Source: Streptomyces sp. 130 (GTDB lineage Bacteria > Actinomycetota > Actinomycetes > Streptomycetales > Streptomycetaceae). Taken from it: a stretch of DNA of 64,000 bases. The DNA lies in NCBI RefSeq assembly GCF_007096885.1, contig NZ_VJNO01000032.1, positions 1 to 64,000 on the forward strand, in the 5' to 3' direction. The notes beneath the pieces were generated by a model that saw nothing but the letters and a program-made list of their open reading frames with translations, did not search any database and was not told the DNA's origin. A program made the translations under genes and the position numbers. Positions 4,085 to 63,098 of this stretch are shown here, one piece after another; positions within the stretch are counted from its first letter, which is position 1, and each line of letters starts with the position of its first letter.

Positions 4085-5683
4085 TCACCGCGCCTCCCAG
4101 TAGCGCGGGTGCACCAGCGTCGACGGCGGGAGGCCGGAGCGCCGCCCGGCCTCCGCCCCGCGCCCCGCGGCCAGCAGCCCCGGCACGGTCAGGGAGCGCA
4201 GCGGGGGCGCGTCCGGGGCCAGGCCGAGCGTGGGGGTGGCGGCCGTCCCGGCCAGCAGGAACCCCCAGCCGCGGTCCCCGTCCGCACCGCCCTCGGGCCG
4301 GTCGGGACCGACCGCGGAGCCCGGCCGGCGCCCGCTGATCCGATAGGGGCGCGGACGCAGCCCGGCGGCCCGCATGGACGCGTCGACCGTCCAGTAGGTG
4401 CGCGGCCGGCCGACGGGCGGGCCCGCGTGCACCACCAGCCGTCCGTGCGGTGCGAGGGCCCGGGCGACCAGGCCGTAGAACTCCGCCGAGTAGAGCTTCG
4501 TGCCGGCGGAGATCCCGGGGTCGGGGAGGTCGGAGATCACCACGTCGTAGCGGTCGCGGGCGGTCCGCAGCCAGGTGAACGCGTCGGCGGTCACCGTCGT
4601 CACGCGAGGGTCGTCCAGCGCGTGCGCGTTCAGCGCGGAAAGCGCCCGGTCCGTACGGGCCAGTCGGGTGACGGCCGGGTCCAGCTCGACCAGGGTCACG
4701 CCGCGCACGTCCGGGTAGCGCAGCACCTCCCGCGCAGCCAGCCCGTCCCCGCCGCCCAGGATCAGGACCCGGGCGTGCGTCCCGTTCATCGCCGGGTGCA
4801 CCAGCGCCTCGTGGTAGCGGTACTCGTCGCGGGAGCTGACCCGCAGCCGCCCGTCCAGATAGAGGTCCAGGGAGCTGCGGCCGGCCCCGGTCAGCACGAC
4901 CTCCTGCACGTCGGTCCGCACGGCGACCCGCACCTGGTCCCCGTACACCGCGCGCCGCGCCGCCCGCTCGAAGTCGGCGGCCAGCAGCGCGGCCGCGGCC
5001 AGCACCGCGATCACCGTGACATTGGCGGCGATCAGCAGCCACCGCGCCCTGCGGCCCACGTCCCGCCGGAACACCCACAGCACCAGCGCCCCGCCCGCCG
5101 CCGCGTTCACCGCACCGGTCAGCAGCGCGCCGGTGAGCTGGCCGAGCGTCGGCAGCAGCAGGAAGGGAAAGGCGAGGCCGCCGACGAGCGCGCCCACGTA
5201 GTCCGCCGCGAACAGATCGGCGACGGCCCCGCCCGCGTCCTGCCGGTCCACCCGCTGGATCAGCGTCATCAGCAGGGGGATCTCCGCGCCGATCAGGACG
5301 CCGATCGTCAGCGAGAACCCGACCAGCGCGTACCGCGACTCACCGAACCAGGCGAACGACGCGTAGAGCACCAGCGCCGAGAAACCGCCCACCAGGGCCA
5401 GCGCCGCCTCGATCAGGCCGAAGCCCACGGCCGCCCGGTTGCGTAAACGTTTCGCGAGCAGCGATCCGATCCCCATCGCGAACACCATCACGGAGAGCAC
5501 GACGGACGCCTGGGTGACCGAGTCACCGATCAGGTAGGAGGCGAGCGCCACCAGTTCGAGCTCGTACACCAGTCCGCAGGCGGCACAGACGAAGACGGCG
5601 GCCAGCACGAGGTACCGACCGGTCCTCGGCCGGACGGGAAGCCGCGCCGCGCCCCCTCGCAGCGACACCTGCTGGTCGATCAT
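4085..5683 (-). CDS. membrane-embedded spermidine synthase-like aminopropyltransferase
   Basis: The 532-residue protein has about seven hydrophobic segments in the first 215 residues, then a spermidine-synthase/methyltransferase fold. The nucleotide-binding signature [18 protein letters not shown] is followed by LVELDP, and VISDLPDP carries the acidic active-site loop. Soluble SpeE enzymes move the aminopropyl group of decarboxylated AdoMet to putrescine. The membrane-fused actinobacterial forms are poorly characterised and the true acceptor is uncertain. The start [10 protein letters not shown] is the only good candidate. Downstream it lies 104 bases from the SRPBCC gene on the same strand. 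Confidence 0.82.
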
Positions 5684-16835: not shown

Positions 16836-18020
16836 TCAAGCTCCCTTCGCCGCCTGGAACAGCTCCGCCCTCGGGTCATGCCCCGCGGTCGCCTCGCGGT
16901 ATGCCTCCAGTGCGTCCCTGGCCTCGGTGCCGAGGTCGGTGGGCACGGTCACCTCGACGGTGACCAGGAGGTCGCCCCGGGTGCCGTCCTTGCGGACCGC
17001 GCCCTTGCCACGGGCCCGCATCGTACGCCCATTCGGCGTACCGGCCGGTAGCTTGAGCGTGACGGGCGGACCGCCGAGCGTCGGCACCTTCACCTCGCCG
17101 CCGAGCGCCGCCTCCGTGAAGGTGACGGGCACCGTGACGGTGAGGTTGTCGCCCTTGCGGCCGAAGACCGGGTGGGCGTCGACGTGGACGACGACGTAGA
17201 GGTCGCCGGCCGGTCCGCCGCGCTCGCCCGGGGCGCCCTTGCCGCGCAGCCGGATGCGCTGCCCGTCCGAGACGCCCGCGGGGATGCGCACCTGCATGGT
17301 CTTCGAGGAGCGGGCCCGGCCGCTGCCCTTGCAGACGTCGCAGGGGTCCTGGGCGATGAGGCCGCGGCCCTTGCAGTCCACGCACGGGTCGGTGAGCGAG
17401 AAGCCGCCGCCGCTGCCGCGCGAGACCTGGCCGGTGCCGACACAGGTCGGGCAGACCCTGGGGGTGCCGTTCTTGTCGCCGGTGCCGGAGCACGCCTTGC
17501 AGGGCGCCTGGCTGGACATCCGGAGCGGGACCGTGGCCCCGTCGACCGCCTCGGTGAAGCTCAGCGTCACCTCGGACTCGATGTCCTGGCCGCGCCGCGG
17601 CTGCACCCTCGTACCGGCGCCGCCGCCGCGGTTGAAGAGGCCGCCGAACACATCGCCGAGGCCGCCGCCGCCGAAACCGCCGGCGCCGCCCTGGCCCCCG
17701 CCCTGGGCGCCTCCGAAGAGGTCCCCCAGGTCGAAGTTGAAGTTGCCCTGGGCGCCGCCGGGCCCGGCGCGGAAGCCGCCGTTGCCGAAGAGGGCACGCG
17801 CCTCGTCGTACTCCTTGCGCCTCTTGGAGTCCCCGAGGACGTCATTCGCCTCGGAGATCTCCTTGAAGCGCTCCTCCGCCTTGTCGTCGCCCTTGTTGGC
17901 GTCCGGGTGGAACTCGCGGGCGAGCTTCCGGTACGCCTTCTTGATCTCGGCGTCGGTGGCGTCCTTGGGGACGCCGAGAACCTTGTAGTAGTCCTTCTCG
18001 ACGAAGTCCTTCGTACTCAT
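16836..18020 (-). CDS. dnaJ: DnaJ co-chaperone
   Basis: The 394-residue type I Hsp40 has the J domain with HPD at residues 38-40 and a Gly/Phe-rich linker (about 85-145). Four zinc-finger repeats follow (CKACSGTG, CPTCVGTG, CVDCKGRG, CDVCKGSG) and then the two substrate-binding domains. It stimulates DnaK ATPase and delivers clients. It is third in the dnaK-grpE-dnaJ-hspR operon, with 132 bases between grpE and dnaJ and one base between dnaJ and hspR. The start MSTKDFVEKDYYKVLG is typical. Confidence 0.96.
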   Translation of the reverse strand: MSTKDFVEKDYYKVLGVPKDATDAEIKKAYRKLAREFHPDANKGDDKAEERFKEISEANDVLGDSKRRKEYDEARALFGNGGFRAGPGGAQGNFNFDLGDLFGGAQGGGQGGAGGFGGGGLGDVFGGLFNRGGGAGTRVQPRRGQDIESEVTLSFTEAVDGATVPLRMSSQAPCKACSGTGDKNGTPRVCPTCVGTGQVSRGSGGGFSLTDPCVDCKGRGLIAQDPCDVCKGSGRARSSKTMQVRIPAGVSDGQRIRLRGKGAPGERGGPAGDLYVVVHVDAHPVFGRKGDNLTVTVPVTFTEAALGGEVKVPTLGGPPVTLKLPAGTPNGRTMRARGKGAVRKDGTRGDLLVTVEVTVPTDLGTEARDALEAYREATAGHDPRAELFQAAKGA

Positions 18021-41417: not shown

Positions 41418-41538
41418 ATTGCCGTTTGCCGCACGGGAGTTGACGATCAGAGCAGTTCAAGGGGCATGGCCCCGGCCGCGGCCGGGGCGGAATTCGGGCG
41501 GAGTCGAGCCCTCCCCTCGAACCGAATGGCAGCCGTTT

Positions 41539-41549
41539 CGAAAGTTTCG
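41539..41549. promoter_or_regulatory. xylanase-type operator, exact
   Basis: CGAAAGTTTCG is the reverse complement of CGAAACTTTCG, the short palindrome found before Streptomyces xylanase genes. It lies 243 bases before the xylanase and 40 bases before the divergent membrane-protein gene, so it could act on either. Confidence 0.65.
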
Positions 41550-41588
41550 GGTCGGTTGGGCCGCGGGTCAGGCTCTAGGGTTTGGCAC

Positions 41589-43205
41589 GTGGTGGTCGGT
41601 GAAGAAGTACGGTCGGGCGCGGGCGAGTCGGTGTGCGAGCCGTGGTGGCGGGTCCACCGTGTCCCGCTGGTCTCCGTGGCGGCGGTGCTGCCGCTGTACG
41701 CCGTGTGGACGGCCTTCCTGGCCACCGGCGCCGGCGACCTCGCCGCGCAGCTGGCCTGGGCCGGGTTCACCGCGCGCCACCCGGGATCGGCGTACAACCT
41801 GTCCTGGTACGGGGGGACGCACACCGCGAACTACAGCGTCTTCTCCTCGTACGTCATGGCCCTCGTCGGCGTCCGCACGGTCTCCGTCGCCTCCGGGCTC
41901 GCCGCCACCTGGCTGCTGGCCCGCCTCTTCGTCCGTACGGGCATGCGCCGCCCGCTCCCGCCCGCGCTGCTCGGCGCCTTCGCGCTGTGGTGCAACGTGG
42001 CGTCGGGGCGTACGACCTTCGCGCTCGGCGTGGCCGTCGGGCTCGTCGCCTGCCGGTACGCCCACCGGGCCGCCGTGGCCGTCGTCGCGGGGGCCCTGGC
42101 CACCATGGCGAGTCCGGTGGCCGGGCTCTTCCTGGTCGTCGTGGGCGCGGCGTACCTGCTCGACCGGAGGTGGCGCACGGGCGCGGTCCTGATGGTGCCG
42201 TTCTTCGCGGTCGTCGGCGCGACGACGCTGCTGTTCCCGTTCCGGGGCGAGCAGCCGATGCACGCGGACCGGGTGTGGCTGCCGGTCCTCGTCTGCGCGG
42301 TGTTCGCGCTCGCGGCGCCCCGGACGCGGCAGTGGCGGCTGACGCGGTACGGGGCCGTGGTGTACGCGGTCGGCGTGGTGCTGACGTTCCTCGTCGCCTC
42401 CCCCGTCGGTACGAACGTCGAGCGGCTGCTCGGCCTGGTCGCCGTGCCCGTGCTGTGCGCGGCGGTCCTCGACACGGTGCGCGCCGGGGCGCGGGTGCGT
42501 ACGGGGTTCCTGGCCGCCGTCCTCGTGCTCTCCGGGCTCTGGCTCGTCGACAAGACCGTGGACGACCTGCGCGTGTCCACCGCCGTGCCGGCCTGGGCGT
42601 CCCGCACCGAGGGTGTCGTCGCCGCGCTCGACCGCCTCGGCGCCGGCCGGGTCCGCGTCGAGGTCGTCCCCGCGCGCAACCACCGCGAGGCCGCCCTCCT
42701 CGCCCCGCACGTGAACATGGCCCGGGGCTGGAACCGCCAGCTGGACGTGGAGCGCGGGCGCCTCTTCTACGAGGGGGAGCTCACCCCGGACCGCTACCGG
42801 GCCTGGCTCGACCGCTGGGCCGTGGGCTTCGTCGTCCTGCACCACGGGCGGCCGGACGGACCCGCCGAGGCCGAAGCCGCCCTGGTCAGGGGCGGGTTGC
42901 CGTGGCTGGAGCAGGTCTGGGAGGACGACGGCTGGACGGTCTACCGGGTCCGGGAGGCCACCCCGCTCGCGCCCCCGCCCGCCACGGTCACCGGGGGCGG
43001 CGACGCGGATCTGGTGCTGCGCATGGAGCGGGCCGGCTCGGTGACCGTACGGATCGCGTACTCGCCGTGGCTCCGGGTGCGGGGGGCGGGCGCGGCCTGT
43101 CTGGGGCAGGACGGCGAATGGACGCGGCTGACCGTGCGGAAGGCGGGGACGTACCGGCTGGACTCGGCGTACGGGCCGGCCCGTTTCACGGAGCGCGGCT
43201 GCTGA
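41589..43205 (+). CDS. polytopic membrane protein (MFS-annotated family)
   Basis: The 538-residue protein has about ten hydrophobic helices in its first 340 residues (VPLVSVAAVLPLYAVWTAFL, VVAGALATMASPVAGLFLVV) and a soluble C-terminal part. The segment NLSWYGGTHTANYSVFSSYV between early helices resembles polyprenol-dependent glycosyltransferase membrane domains more than a transporter. The family is commonly labelled MFS in Streptomyces. The GTG at 41589 follows TAGGGT (41576-41581) by 7 bases, so it is probably leaderless. It is divergent from the xylanase gene. Confidence 0.7.
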   Translation: MVVGEEVRSGAGESVCEPWWRVHRVPLVSVAAVLPLYAVWTAFLATGAGDLAAQLAWAGFTARHPGSAYNLSWYGGTHTANYSVFSSYVMALVGVRTVSVASGLAATWLLARLFVRTGMRRPLPPALLGAFALWCNVASGRTTFALGVAVGLVACRYAHRAAVAVVAGALATMASPVAGLFLVVVGAAYLLDRRWRTGAVLMVPFFAVVGATTLLFPFRGEQPMHADRVWLPVLVCAVFALAAPRTRQWRLTRYGAVVYAVGVVLTFLVASPVGTNVERLLGLVAVPVLCAAVLDTVRAGARVRTGFLAAVLVLSGLWLVDKTVDDLRVSTAVPAWASRTEGVVAALDRLGAGRVRVEVVPARNHREAALLAPHVNMARGWNRQLDVERGRLFYEGELTPDRYRAWLDRWAVGFVVLHHGRPDGPAEAEAALVRGGLPWLEQVWEDDGWTVYRVREATPLAPPPATVTGGGDADLVLRMERAGSVTVRIAYSPWLRVRGAGAACLGQDGEWTRLTVRKAGTYRLDSAYGPARFTERGC

Positions 43206-43240
43206 GCCCGGGTCGCCGGGTGACGGTGACCGGACGCGAT

Positions 43241-43881
43241 CACGACGCCCGCGCCTCCGCCCATACGGCCTTGCCGAACGGGACGCCGTGCACGCCCCAG
43301 GCCCCGGGCGTACCGGCTCGCCCACTTCACGGGCGACGGCTACTGCGCGTCCCAGCGCACCCGTCCTCGCCGACGCCCGCGCCTCCGCCCGCGCCTCCGC
43401 CCATACGGCCTTGCCGGACGGGACGCCGTGCACACCCCAGGCCCCGGGCGTACCGGCTCGCCCACTTCACCGGGGAACGGCTACTGCGCGTCCCAGCGCA
43501 CCCGTCCTCGCCGGACGCCGGGCGACGCGACGCGATCACGGCGCCCTCACCCCCGCCCAAACGGCCTTGCCGAACGAGACGCCGTGCACACCCCAGGCCC
43601 CGGGCGTACCGGCCCGCCCGCCTCACCGGGGAACGGCTACTGCGCGTCCCAGCGCACCCGTCCTCGCCGGCGCCCGCGCCTCCGCCTGTACGGCCTTGCC
43701 GAACGAGACGCCGTGCACACCCCAGGCCCCGGGCGTACCGGCTCGCCCACTTCACCGGGGACGGCTACTGCGCGTCCCAGCGCACCCGTCCTCGCCGGAC
43801 GCCGGGCGACGCGACGCGATCACGGCGCCCTCACCCCCGCCCAAACAGCCTTGCCGAACGCTATGCCGTGGGCGCCCAGGC
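43241..43881. repeat. tandem array of five 129-156 bp repeats
   Basis: Copies of a unit with the core CCTTGCCGAACG..ACGCCGTGCAC..CCCCGGGCGTACCGG, ending CAGCGCACCCGTCCTCGCCG, begin near 43267, 43407, 43563, 43692 and 43847 (the last partial). Spacing alternates (140, 156, 129, 155) because of two spacer types: one with CGCGATCACGGCGCCCTCAC, one with CCCGCGCCTCCGCC. The core is over 90% identical between copies. The array fills the gap between two convergent genes. No convincing protein is encoded, although one minus-strand frame stays open through several units. Confidence 0.9.
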
Positions 43882-43884
43882 CCG

Positions 43885-44529
43885 TCAGCGGCGGTTCAGC
43901 AGGCCCGTGTCCAGGGCCACCACCACCGCGCGGGTGCGGTCGTTGACGTCCAGTTTGGCGAAGATGCGGAGCAGGTGCGTCTTCACCGTGGCTTCGCCGA
44001 TGAACAGCCGGCGGCCTATCTCCGCGTTCGACAGGCCGTCCGCGACCGCTTCCAGGACGTCCGACTCGCGGGCGGTCAGGGCGACCGGGGCCGGGCGCCG
44101 CATCTTGGCGACCAGGCGCTGGGCGACGCGCGGGGCCAGGACCGTCTCGCCGCGTGAGGCGGCGTGGATGGCGTCCACCAGCTGCTCCCGGGTGGCGTCC
44201 TTGAGCAGGTAGCCGGTGGCGCCCGCCTCCACGCCGCGTTCGATGTCCGCGTCGGTGTCGTACGTGGTGAGGATCAGCACCCGGGTCGGGGCGGGGCCCG
44301 CGACGATCTCCGTGGTGGCGCCGACGCCGTCGAGGACCGGCATGCGCAGGTCGAGCAGGGCCACGTCCGGGCGGAGGCGCTCGACCAGGGCGACCGCCTC
44401 GCGGCCGTCGCTCGCCTCGCCGACGATGTCGAGCGACGGTTCGGAGCCGAGCAGGGCGACCAGCCCCGCACGCATCACGGTGTGGTCGTCGGCCAGGATG
44501 ATGCGCAGGGGCGCGGGGGTGGGCGTCAT
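43885..44529 (-). CDS. NarL/FixJ-family response regulator
   Basis: The 214-residue regulator has a receiver domain (acidic pair Asp14-Asp15, phospho-acceptor Asp60, Thr/Lys switch with Lys110) and a LuxR-type HTH (LTARESDVLEAVADGLSNAE, then IGRRLFIGEATVKTHLLRIF). Its start overlaps the kinase stop (ATGA, 44526-44529). It is the last gene of an MMPL-kinase-regulator operon and probably controls the exporter gene. It ends next to the repeat array. Confidence 0.93.
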   Translation of the reverse strand: MTPTPAPLRIILADDHTVMRAGLVALLGSEPSLDIVGEASDGREAVALVERLRPDVALLDLRMPVLDGVGATTEIVAGPAPTRVLILTTYDTDADIERGVEAGATGYLLKDATREQLVDAIHAASRGETVLAPRVAQRLVAKMRRPAPVALTARESDVLEAVADGLSNAEIGRRLFIGEATVKTHLLRIFAKLDVNDRTRAVVVALDTGLLNRR

Positions 44530-60723: not shown

Positions 60724-61194
60724 ATGGGAACCCACCGCACCACGCTGCCCGGAGTCGGCGTCCAGTACGACTACACGACCGAGTCGGGGCAGCACATCTC
60801 CGTGGTGGTCCACCACGACGGGCGGCGGTTCATCGGCTTCTACGACCAGGACGACCCTGATTCGTGCCTGCTCTCCGTCCCCCTGACTCCACAGGAGGCG
60901 ACCGGTCTCGCCCACCTCATCGACGCGGCGCCCATCGACGCCGTACGGACCGAGGGCATCGATCTGGTCACCGAGCACATCCCGCTCGGCACCCGCTCGC
61001 CGTACGGCGGCCGGCTGCTCGGCGACACCAAGGCGCGGACCCGGACCGGCGCCTCGATCGTGGCGGTGCTGCGCACCCACAGCGCGCACCCGTCACCCGG
61101 GCCGGACTTCCGGCTGGCCATCGGCGACACGCTCGTCGCCGTCGGAACACGCGAGGGCGTCGACACGCTCTCCGAGATCATCGCGGAGGGCTGA
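60724..61194 (+). CDS. TrkA-C/KhtT-like regulatory subunit of a K+/H+ antiporter
   Basis: The 156-residue soluble protein has an N-terminal part (LPGVGVQYDYTTESGQHISV) and a C-terminal TrkA-C (RCK_C) domain (TKARTRTGASIVAVLRTHSA, RLAIGDTLVAVGTREGVDTL). KhtT-like subunits bind a nucleotide or respond to pH and gate the antiporter subunit. The ATG at 60724 has GGGAGGA upstream; a longer start lacks a site. The antiporter gene starts two bases after its stop, so both form one unit. Confidence 0.85.
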   Translation: MGTHRTTLPGVGVQYDYTTESGQHISVVVHHDGRRFIGFYDQDDPDSCLLSVPLTPQEATGLAHLIDAAPIDAVRTEGIDLVTEHIPLGTRSPYGGRLLGDTKARTRTGASIVAVLRTHSAHPSPGPDFRLAIGDTLVAVGTREGVDTLSEIIAEG

Positions 61195-61196
61195 CC

Positions 61197-62432
61197 GTGC
61201 ACGACACGACCGCACTGCTGGTGGAGCTCGGCTCCGTCATCCTGGGACTCGGCATCATCGGGCGGTTCGCCGGCCGGATAGGGCTCTCGCCGATCCCCCT
61301 CTATCTGCTGGCCGGGCTGGCCTTCGGCGAGGGCGGGCTGCTGCCGCTCGGGGCCAGTGAGGAGTTCACCGCCGTCGGCGCCGAGATCGGCGTCATCCTG
61401 CTGCTGCTCCTGCTCGGCCTGGAATACAGCGCCTCCGAGCTGGTGACCAGCCTGAAGACGCAGTACCCGTCCGGTGCCGTGGACTTCGTGCTCAACGCGA
61501 CCCCGGGCGCGGTCGCCGCGCTGCTGCTCGGCTGGGGCCCGGTCGGGGCCGTCGCGCTCGCCGGTGTGACCTGGATCTCCTCTTCCGGCGTGATCGCGAA
61601 GGTCCTCGCGGACCTGGGACGGCTCGGCAACCGGGAGACCCCGGTCATCCTCGGGGTGCTGGTCATCGAGGACCTGTCGATGGCGGTCTACCTGCCGCTG
61701 CTCACCGCGATGCTCGCGGGCGTCGGCTTCGCCGGCGGCAGCATCGCCCTGCTGATCGCGCTCGGCACGGTCGGCCTGGTGCTCTACCTCGCGCTGCGGC
61801 ACGGCCGGCTGATCAGCCGCGCGGTCTCCTCCGACAATCCGGAGATGCTGCTGCTCGTCGTGCTCGGGCTGACCGTCCTGGTCGCCGGCGTGGCCCAGCA
61901 GCTCCAGGTGTCGGCCGCCGTGGGCGCGTTCCTCGTCGGCATCGCGCTCTCCGGTGAGGTCGCGGAGGGCGCGCGCAAGCTGCTGACCCCGCTGCGGGAC
62001 CTGTTCGCCGCCGTCTTCTTCGTGTTCTTCGGGCTCTCCACCAATCCGGCCGAGATCCCGCCGGTGCTGCTGCCGGCCGCGCTGCTCGCCGTCGTCACCG
62101 TCTTCACGAAGATCGGCACCGGCTGGTACGCGGCCCGGCGCGCCGGCATCGGACCGCGCGGGCGCTGGCGGGCGGGCGGCACGCTCGTCGCGCGCGGCGA
62201 GTTCTCCATCGTCATCGCCGGCCTGGCCGTGGCGACGGAACCCCGCATCGGCCCCATCGCCACCGCGTACGTCCTGATCCTGGTCATCGTCGGCCCGCTC
62301 ACCGCGCGCTGGACCCAGCCGGTGGTCGAGCGCGTCCGGAAGTGGCGCGGCAAGGACGGTGCGTCCGCCGCGTCCACGGGCACCGCGCCGGTCCCCCCGG
62401 CCCGGGAAGAGGTCTCGGCCTCGTCCGAGTGA
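61197..62432 (+). CDS. CPA2-family K+(Na+)/H+ antiporter (KhtU/KefB-like)
   Basis: The 411-residue protein has 12 to 13 membrane helices of the CPA2 type: GLSPIPLYLLAGLAFGEGG, GVTWISSSGVIAKVLADLG, VVLGLTVLVAGVAQQLQVSA and VFFVFFGLSTNPAEIP. It exports K+ or Na+ in exchange for protons and is gated by the preceding TrkA-C subunit. The GTG at 61197 has GGAGGG upstream. It lacks the fused RCK domain of KefB, as expected for a two-gene system. Its last codons lie in a short tandem repeat. Confidence 0.88.
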   Translation: MHDTTALLVELGSVILGLGIIGRFAGRIGLSPIPLYLLAGLAFGEGGLLPLGASEEFTAVGAEIGVILLLLLLGLEYSASELVTSLKTQYPSGAVDFVLNATPGAVAALLLGWGPVGAVALAGVTWISSSGVIAKVLADLGRLGNRETPVILGVLVIEDLSMAVYLPLLTAMLAGVGFAGGSIALLIALGTVGLVLYLALRHGRLISRAVSSDNPEMLLLVVLGLTVLVAGVAQQLQVSAAVGAFLVGIALSGEVAEGARKLLTPLRDLFAAVFFVFFGLSTNPAEIPPVLLPAALLAVVTVFTKIGTGWYAARRAGIGPRGRWRAGGTLVARGEFSIVIAGLAVATEPRIGPIATAYVLILVIVGPLTARWTQPVVERVRKWRGKDGASAASTGTAPVPPAREEVSASSE

Positions 62433-62530
62433 GGCAGCCGCCTCTCCCCGCCTCGTCCGAGTGAGGCAGCCGCCTCGCCCGAGTGAGGCAGCCGCCTCGT
62501 CCGGCCTCCGAGTAGGCAGCCGCCGCGTCC
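62419..62530. repeat. short tandem repeats spanning a stop codon
   Basis: Four copies of CCGAGTGAGGCAGCCGCCTC, imperfect, recur every 23-31 bases from inside the antiporter gene end through its TGA and 100 bases beyond. Each copy contains the same GAGTGAG, so the stop codon is itself repeated. No gene follows in frame. Confidence 0.75.
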
Positions 62531-62552
62531 GGGCAGCCGGGTCCGCGTGGTG

Positions 62553-63098
62553 TCAGGCCCTCGCCGGCAGGTCCGGCGCCCAGCCCAGCGGGTAGGCGTC
62601 GGTGCCCTCCGCGGGGGCCGCCGCCTCGCCGCCCGCGTCGGTGAACGCCCGCAGCGCGTCGATCAGCGCGGCGCGCTGCTCGGGCGCGATGCGCTCCACG
62701 ATCGAGGCGACCTCCCGGCGGCGGCCCGCCGTGACCTCCTCGACCAGGCGGTGGCCCTCGGGCGTCACCCGCAGCACCGTCTCGCGGCGGTTGGCCGGAT
62801 TGACCTGCCGCTCGGCGAGGCCCGCCGCGATCAGCCGGTCGAGCATCCGCATCGCGGTCGAGGGGTTCACGCCGAGGCGCTCGGCGAGGGTGACGAGCTT
62901 GGCCTCCCCGTGGGTGGAGAGCACCACGAGCAGCCGGAACTGGGGCAGCGTCACCCGGTCCTCGACCGCCGCGAGCGACCGGGCGGACACCGCGACCAGC
63001 AGTCGCGACGCGGTCAGCACCGCGCGCGTCACCGCGTCGACGTCGTCCCGGTCCGGGGCGGTCGGGGGGTCATCGGGTGCCTGTCCGTGCGCGGCCAT
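62553..63098 (-). CDS. MarR-family transcriptional regulator
   Basis: The 181-residue regulator has the MarR winged helix: LTLPQFRLLVVLSTHGEAKL-like segment, then LAERLGVNPSTAMRMLDRLI and AGLAERQVNPANRRETVLRV, followed by dimerisation helices. MarR proteins respond to small aromatic compounds or oxidants. The ATG at 63096-63098 faces the divergent oxidoreductase gene across 131 bases with a repeated operator-like motif. Regulation of that neighbour and of itself is likely. Confidence 0.85.
   Translation of the reverse strand: MAAHGQAPDDPPTAPDRDDVDAVTRAVLTASRLLVAVSARSLAAVEDRVTLPQFRLLVVLSTHGEAKLVTLAERLGVNPSTAMRMLDRLIAAGLAERQVNPANRRETVLRVTPEGHRLVEEVTAGRRREVASIVERIAPEQRAALIDALRAFTDAGGEAAAPAEGTDAYPLGWAPDLPARA

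Follow-up and report, generated by a model that had tools for sequence, protein, structure and literature searches.

Relics of tandem and partial gene duplication occur in intergenic DNA. In Streptomyces, paralogs of abaA (orfA), which carry a HATPase domain, lie near whiJ (XRE) and bldB paralogs, as described in the parts of one report that bear on them (PMC10294661). A narrow search of the literature on intergenic repeats found no earlier report of an array such as the one described here. It lies in a window of 64,000 nucleotides, the whole stretch of Streptomyces sp. 130 DNA that was analysed, and each of its units joins the ends of two facing genes: some 39 bp from the 3' end of a gene that we call gene A are joined tail to tail, across a spacer, with the last 22 or so C-terminal codons of a minus-strand HATPase gene.

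The array fills positions 43233-43884, between the convergent gene A and a LuxR-type response regulator that is followed by its histidine kinase; the interval between the two genes, from stop codon to stop codon, is 43206-43884. These two are the ORFs that directly adjoin the array, and both are intact at its borders. The gene A protein matches no Pfam family above cut-off, and we read it as a membrane protein. The anchor sequence GCCTTGCCG recurs at 43268, 43408, 43564, 43693 and 43848, with spacings of 140, 156, 129 and 155 bp. Tandem Repeats Finder reports 1.9 copies of a 156-bp period at 43386-43674 and 2.2 copies of a 284-bp dimer at 43233-43860, in agreement with the two alternating spacer types that an earlier note on this DNA had pointed out. 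One unit aligned against another scores 192, the maximum among 500 dinucleotide shuffles being 35 (one unit pair). The array between convergent genes, first noticed in that note, is thereby confirmed, as are its cores of over 90% identity: the four full cores are 91-97% identical, differing pairwise at 4, 11, 6, 9, 4 and 9 of 127-128 sites, with 0-1 gap column besides the substitutions. Of the five copies then counted, four are full and the fifth is partial (59 bp at 86%). The head of the array is a degenerate copy, namely the genuine 3' end of gene A.

The copy count depends on a draft assembly of 7,138,554 bases in 142 contigs, and near-identical copies may possibly have been miscounted. That the array as such is an assembly artefact, its true copy number being different or one, is very improbable all the same: between the copies there are 4-11 substitutions as well as spacer indels, variation that faulty assembly would hardly produce.

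Table 1. Features of the array and of the genes at its borders (window coordinates).
Feature	Position	Strand	Remarks
Gene A	41466-43205	+	579 aa, intact; its final ~40 bp (43166-43205) form the head of repeat copy 1
Unit 1, HATPase C-terminal codons (PGAWGVHGVPFGKAVWAEARAS, then stop)	43240-43308	-	stop codon 43240-43242
Copy 2 head, duplicated gene A 3' end	43307-43345	+	35/39 identical to the gene A end of L020
Unit 2, HATPase C-terminal fragment, short (type-1) spacer	43381-43448	-	limits approximate
Copy 3 head, duplicated gene A 3' end	43447-43485	+	from alignment; limits approximate
Unit 3, HATPase C-terminal fragment (GAWGVHGVSFGKAVWAGVRAP, then stop), long (type-2) spacer	43536-43604	-	stop codon 43536-43538
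Copy 4 head, duplicated gene A 3' end	43603-43641	+	from alignment; limits approximate
Unit 4, HATPase C-terminal fragment, short spacer	43667-43733	-	limits approximate
Copy 5 head, duplicated gene A 3' end	43732-43769	+	from alignment; limits approximate
Unit 5, outer, partial and divergent HATPase C-terminal fragment (GLGAHGIAFGKAVWAGVRAP, then stop)	43820-43884	-	86% over 59 bp; translation
LuxR/NarL-type response regulator	43885-44529	-	intact; Pfam; 98% identical ortholog in G140

The origin of the unit emerges from comparison with relatives of gene A, for which 50 named loci were fetched. BLAST of the array against them (E <= 1e-3) matches four: in L020 the match is the 3' end of gene A, and in L022, L023 and L027 it is the 3' end of a minus-strand gene that encodes a HATPase_c_2 protein (PF13581 in L022 and L027). 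The HATPase gene of L027, downstream of gene A, has as its neighbour an XRE gene whose product carries HTH and DUF5753 domains. On the strength of this domain and this neighbour we assign the HATPase gene an AbaA-like name, which should be taken as putative.

Translated on the minus strand, the array yields GAWGVHGVPFGKAVWAEARAS-stop and variants of it, so the units hold the C-terminal sequence of the AbaA/RsbW-like HATPase family. Unit 1 matches at the protein level with E 5e-5 and 65% identity, and its DNA is 85% identical over 74 bp to the L022 gene. Searched against its own genome, the window's draft, the L027 HATPase protein finds 33 matches, 30 of them outside the array at 30-43% identity; the remaining three are array units, at 63-65% over 23-24 residues. 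In a profile search of six-frame window pieces, the array fragments rank second to fourth (E 0.00034, 0.0038 and 0.039). This profile came from ORFs picked automatically, and its best match in the window is a long other protein, so multidomain sequence probably entered it.

The fragments sit in short frames closed by stops. In unit 2 the usual stop position holds no stop, and a 12-bp tandem repeat occupies 43374-43402; unit 4 lacks the usual stop as well, and a Trp codon has become Gln. Both missing stops and the Trp change fit decay. Unit 5 is cut at the stop of the response regulator and would represent the outer end of the former HATPase gene. No further HATPase gene sequence was seen at the array locus. 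An intact HATPase_c_2 reading frame is also absent: the three array ORFs, of 142, 289 and 172 aa, gave no Pfam family above cut-off, and a coding repeat was rejected on this ground. The protein-family match envisaged in the earlier note for the open minus-strand frame did not appear in these ORFs either. Its statement that the repeats hold no clear protein stands as regards a long gene and falls as regards the HATPase codons, which lie in frames other than those considered there; the long open minus-strand frame, 43327-43755, is a different one.

For the gene-A-like part, the relative with 35 of 39 identical positions is Streptomyces sp. col6 (L020). In each of the four units this part aligns with the gene A ends of L018, L019, L020 and L054 better than 300 of 300 shuffles, and the window's own gene A end aligns with unit 3 better than 1000 of 1000; for the gene A ends of L022 and L027, most alignments of the gene-A-like part do not exceed those of shuffled sequence. 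The array's gene-A-like part is nearer to the gene A of relatives than to the window's own. All five copies align in register with the L020, L022 and L027 ends.

Whole-genome searches lead to the same two places. Of six whole genomes, four have their best place for the array at the end of gene A or in the HATPase gene downstream of it: in G451, G452 and G453 it is the HATPase gene (E 1.2e-16, 1.8e-14 and 2.3e-16), at places that coincide with L022, L023 and L027, and in G454 it is the last 39 bp of gene A (E 3.9e-7; the L020 locus). The other two, G455 and G456, offer weak and apparently unrelated places only. A close HATPase gene downstream of gene A is present in 3 of 50 loci, and the best whole-genome place of the array falls exactly there; if HATPase paralogs are as many in these genomes as in the array's own, this points to a common origin of the junction.

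Elsewhere the array is scarce. In its own genome, BLASTN finds the array itself and one 35-bp stretch (86%, E 8.4e-4), the full unit being absent from the rest of the 7.1 Mb draft. Among 392 genomes of the genus, own included and taken as Streptomyces from the names of the gene A loci, four match at E <= 1e-6: the own genome and three with partial matches of ~48-58 bp, among which the L071 match falls on the 3' end of a different HATPase gene. The full unit is absent from the 391 others, and the BLASTN check proposed in the earlier note accordingly places full units at the array locus only. In a sample of relatives (61 genomes, own included), 12 match at E <= 0.001, over 23-62 bp outside the own genome; a second sample, around G140, gives none of 150 at E <= 1e-7, without a positive control, the own genome (G000) not being among the matches listed. 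The partial matches L069, L070, L007, L165, L167 and L168 lie at or near ORFs of unrelated appearance and were set aside; at L166 the filter used left no ORF.

These searches bear on the idea of a mobile or REP/MITE-like repeat, or of a CRISPR-like array, which the repeats with alternating spacers call to mind. Its probability is negligible: but for the 35-bp match the repeat has a single locus in the draft, the plasmid and phage collections hold no match to the array, and the spacers are shared rather than unique, in units of 129-156 bp. A repeated non-coding RNA element, as proposed in the earlier note, would agree with units that are long, well conserved and endowed with stems, yet it too is extremely unlikely. 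Rfam gives three matches, one of them touching the array edge, at 20.5-24.5 bits against gathering thresholds of 52-83 (E 0.12 to 0.7); folding z-scores of ten stretches range from -2.1 to +0.9; full units occupy one locus in the own genome and none in the other genomes of the genus; and ancestry from gene ends accounts for the conserved parts.

What follows gene A differs among its relatives, so the slot is variable. Our comparison of it covers window positions 43206-43884, loci L018-L027, L054, L066, L076 and L080, and G195 near 3659600-3661400. In the near relatives L018, L019, L054 and G195 the order is gene A, amtB, glnK, regulator; G140 (L074) has amtB and glnK beside the regulator, with gene A beyond the fetched piece, and in G454 gene A and amtB (L020) lie on a different contig from the regulator, glnK and amtB (L156). 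In the closest relatives, amtB-glnK occupies the slot of the array. The amtB genes found elsewhere in the own genome are only 55% identical. Other loci have a hydrolase-like gene after gene A (L021, L080), two small genes (L025, L076) or the XRE/HATPase set (L022, L023, L027), and the query genes were not seen there in most of the 50 loci. No genome in which gene A directly adjoins the HATPase gene was found: in L027 the two are separated by a short ORF, in L022 and L023 by two genes. At E <= 1e-60, response regulators in the genomes of these three loci do not exceed 58% identity.

We conclude that the array is very probably the relic of a convergent pair of gene A and a HATPase gene, whose junction was duplicated in tandem and whose HATPase body was lost, leaving a neutral spacer. 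The ancestor would have carried gene A tail to tail with the HATPase gene. A junction of 130-155 bp may then have been tandemly duplicated, through slippage or unequal recombination; a deletion of ~27 bp from one spacer could have brought about the two spacer types that came to alternate, with more duplication after it and homogenisation of the inner copies. Finally, a deletion reaching to the stop of the response regulator would have removed the HATPase gene body. Divergence is greatest at the two outer ends of the array, as would be expected if the inner copies were homogenised. The steps may have come in another order, since the substitution counts single out no duplicated dimer: there are 11 differences between units 1 and 3, 4 between units 2 and 4, and 4 again between units 1 and 2. 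This pattern lends no clear support to a simple duplication of the 284-bp dimer. The recombination product that the earlier note had listed among its options gains support from these units, which resemble tandem duplications of a two-gene 3' junction.

The same note had also proposed a terminator bank. In that reading a GC-rich hairpin in each full unit would terminate transcription from both sides, and the repeats would insulate the two convergent genes. A hairpin, TGCGC-gtccca-GCGCA within a longer GC-rich stem, is indeed kept in 4 of 4 full units. On the plus strand its folding energy over 48 nt is -21.4 to -24.2 kcal/mol, modestly better than shuffles (5 to 17 of 300 equal it); on the minus strand it is poorer, with 35 to 139 of 300 shuffles as good. 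Against a bank of terminators, 6-15% of the 48-nt stretches sampled from the window fold at least as well, the longer stretches have the z-scores given above, and the inner hairpin, being the same in each of the four units, offers no covariation support. No T-tailed terminator was found in 43100-44000, nor any promoter-like site. We consider this proposal unlikely.

Structured transcript ends that lack U have been reported in S. clavuligerus, in a part of one study (PMC8269248), and for that reason duplicated U-less terminators are possible. Amplification of the junction could in that case have been kept by selection, each unit adding a two-way U-less terminator and the array acting as an adjustable insulator that shields the two-component operon from read-through. 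We regard this as a long shot; if true, it would provide a natural series of terminator copy numbers, and a wider sign of it would be that tandem repeats are in excess where gene ends converge, specifically in this genome.

Counts of such repeats were made with crude gene calls and post hoc. For gaps up to 800 bp, tandem repeats occur in 20 of 90 convergent against 28 of 426 other gaps in the own samples (window included), and in 5 of 101 against 24 of 456 in G195 and G454; for gaps up to 400 bp the figures are 11 of 73 against 16 of 357, and 4 of 82 against 14 of 379. By sample, and for the 400-bp and the 800-bp limit in turn, p is 0.00056 and 0.0012 in the first own sample, which holds the array, 0.19 and 0.0085 in the second, and 0.22 and 0.14, not significant, in the third; G195 gives 0.54 and 0.66, and G454 0.45 and 0.67. 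As the gene calls are crude, we keep the excess merely as a remark.

Together, the window and a further 400 kb of its genome contain four arrays with a period of 60 or more, namely the present one and three others that lie in or overlap ORFs; 369 kb of the 50 relative loci contain one. Two further own-genome samples of ~400 kb each contain more arrays, some of them intergenic and including those of a different intergenic repeat. In the window itself, at 62418-62531, the last codons and stop of the ORF 60864-62432 are tandemly repeated in two to four imperfect copies that run into the gap before the convergent ORF 62553-63098, a small second repetition of a gene end. Intergenic arrays with cores like CGCCGGCGGGGCTGG or CGCCGGACGGGCTTGATTTCAC lie at 4370-4750 and 16985-17315 (L220) of own-genome contig C23 and near 3791228 of G195 (L183); with units of 22 to ~100 bp, they seem to be a recurrent intergenic element in both genomes.

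Altogether, the array is striking for its length and its two-gene composition, yet it is no new kind of thing: most likely it is a neutral spacer between two genes and, the insulator reading aside, an ordinary genomic scar. It documents a variable gene slot in Streptomyces, which a HATPase regulatory gene has apparently entered and left again. The lesson is that the ends of neighbouring genes can explain a striking intergenic array once relatives are compared.

With the CGCCGGACGGGCTTGATTTCAC-type array of its own genome (C23 16985-17315), the present one shares the placement of a tandem array between genes; that type differs in sequence and in its shorter units, and recurs at two places in C23 with a similar one in G195. 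With the abaA (orfA) paralogs near whiJ-type XRE genes, as far as the cited parts describe them (PMC10294661), the likeness is the match of the unit's minus-strand part to the HATPase_c_2 C-terminus, but the array keeps only the ~22 C-terminal codons and lacks the HATPase domain.

The closest likeness in build is to relics of tandem and partial duplication: the unit stems from local gene sequence and is repeated head to tail, with spacer indels and divergent outer copies. Where the array departs from them is that its unit spans the ends of two facing genes, so that a whole convergent junction is repeated.
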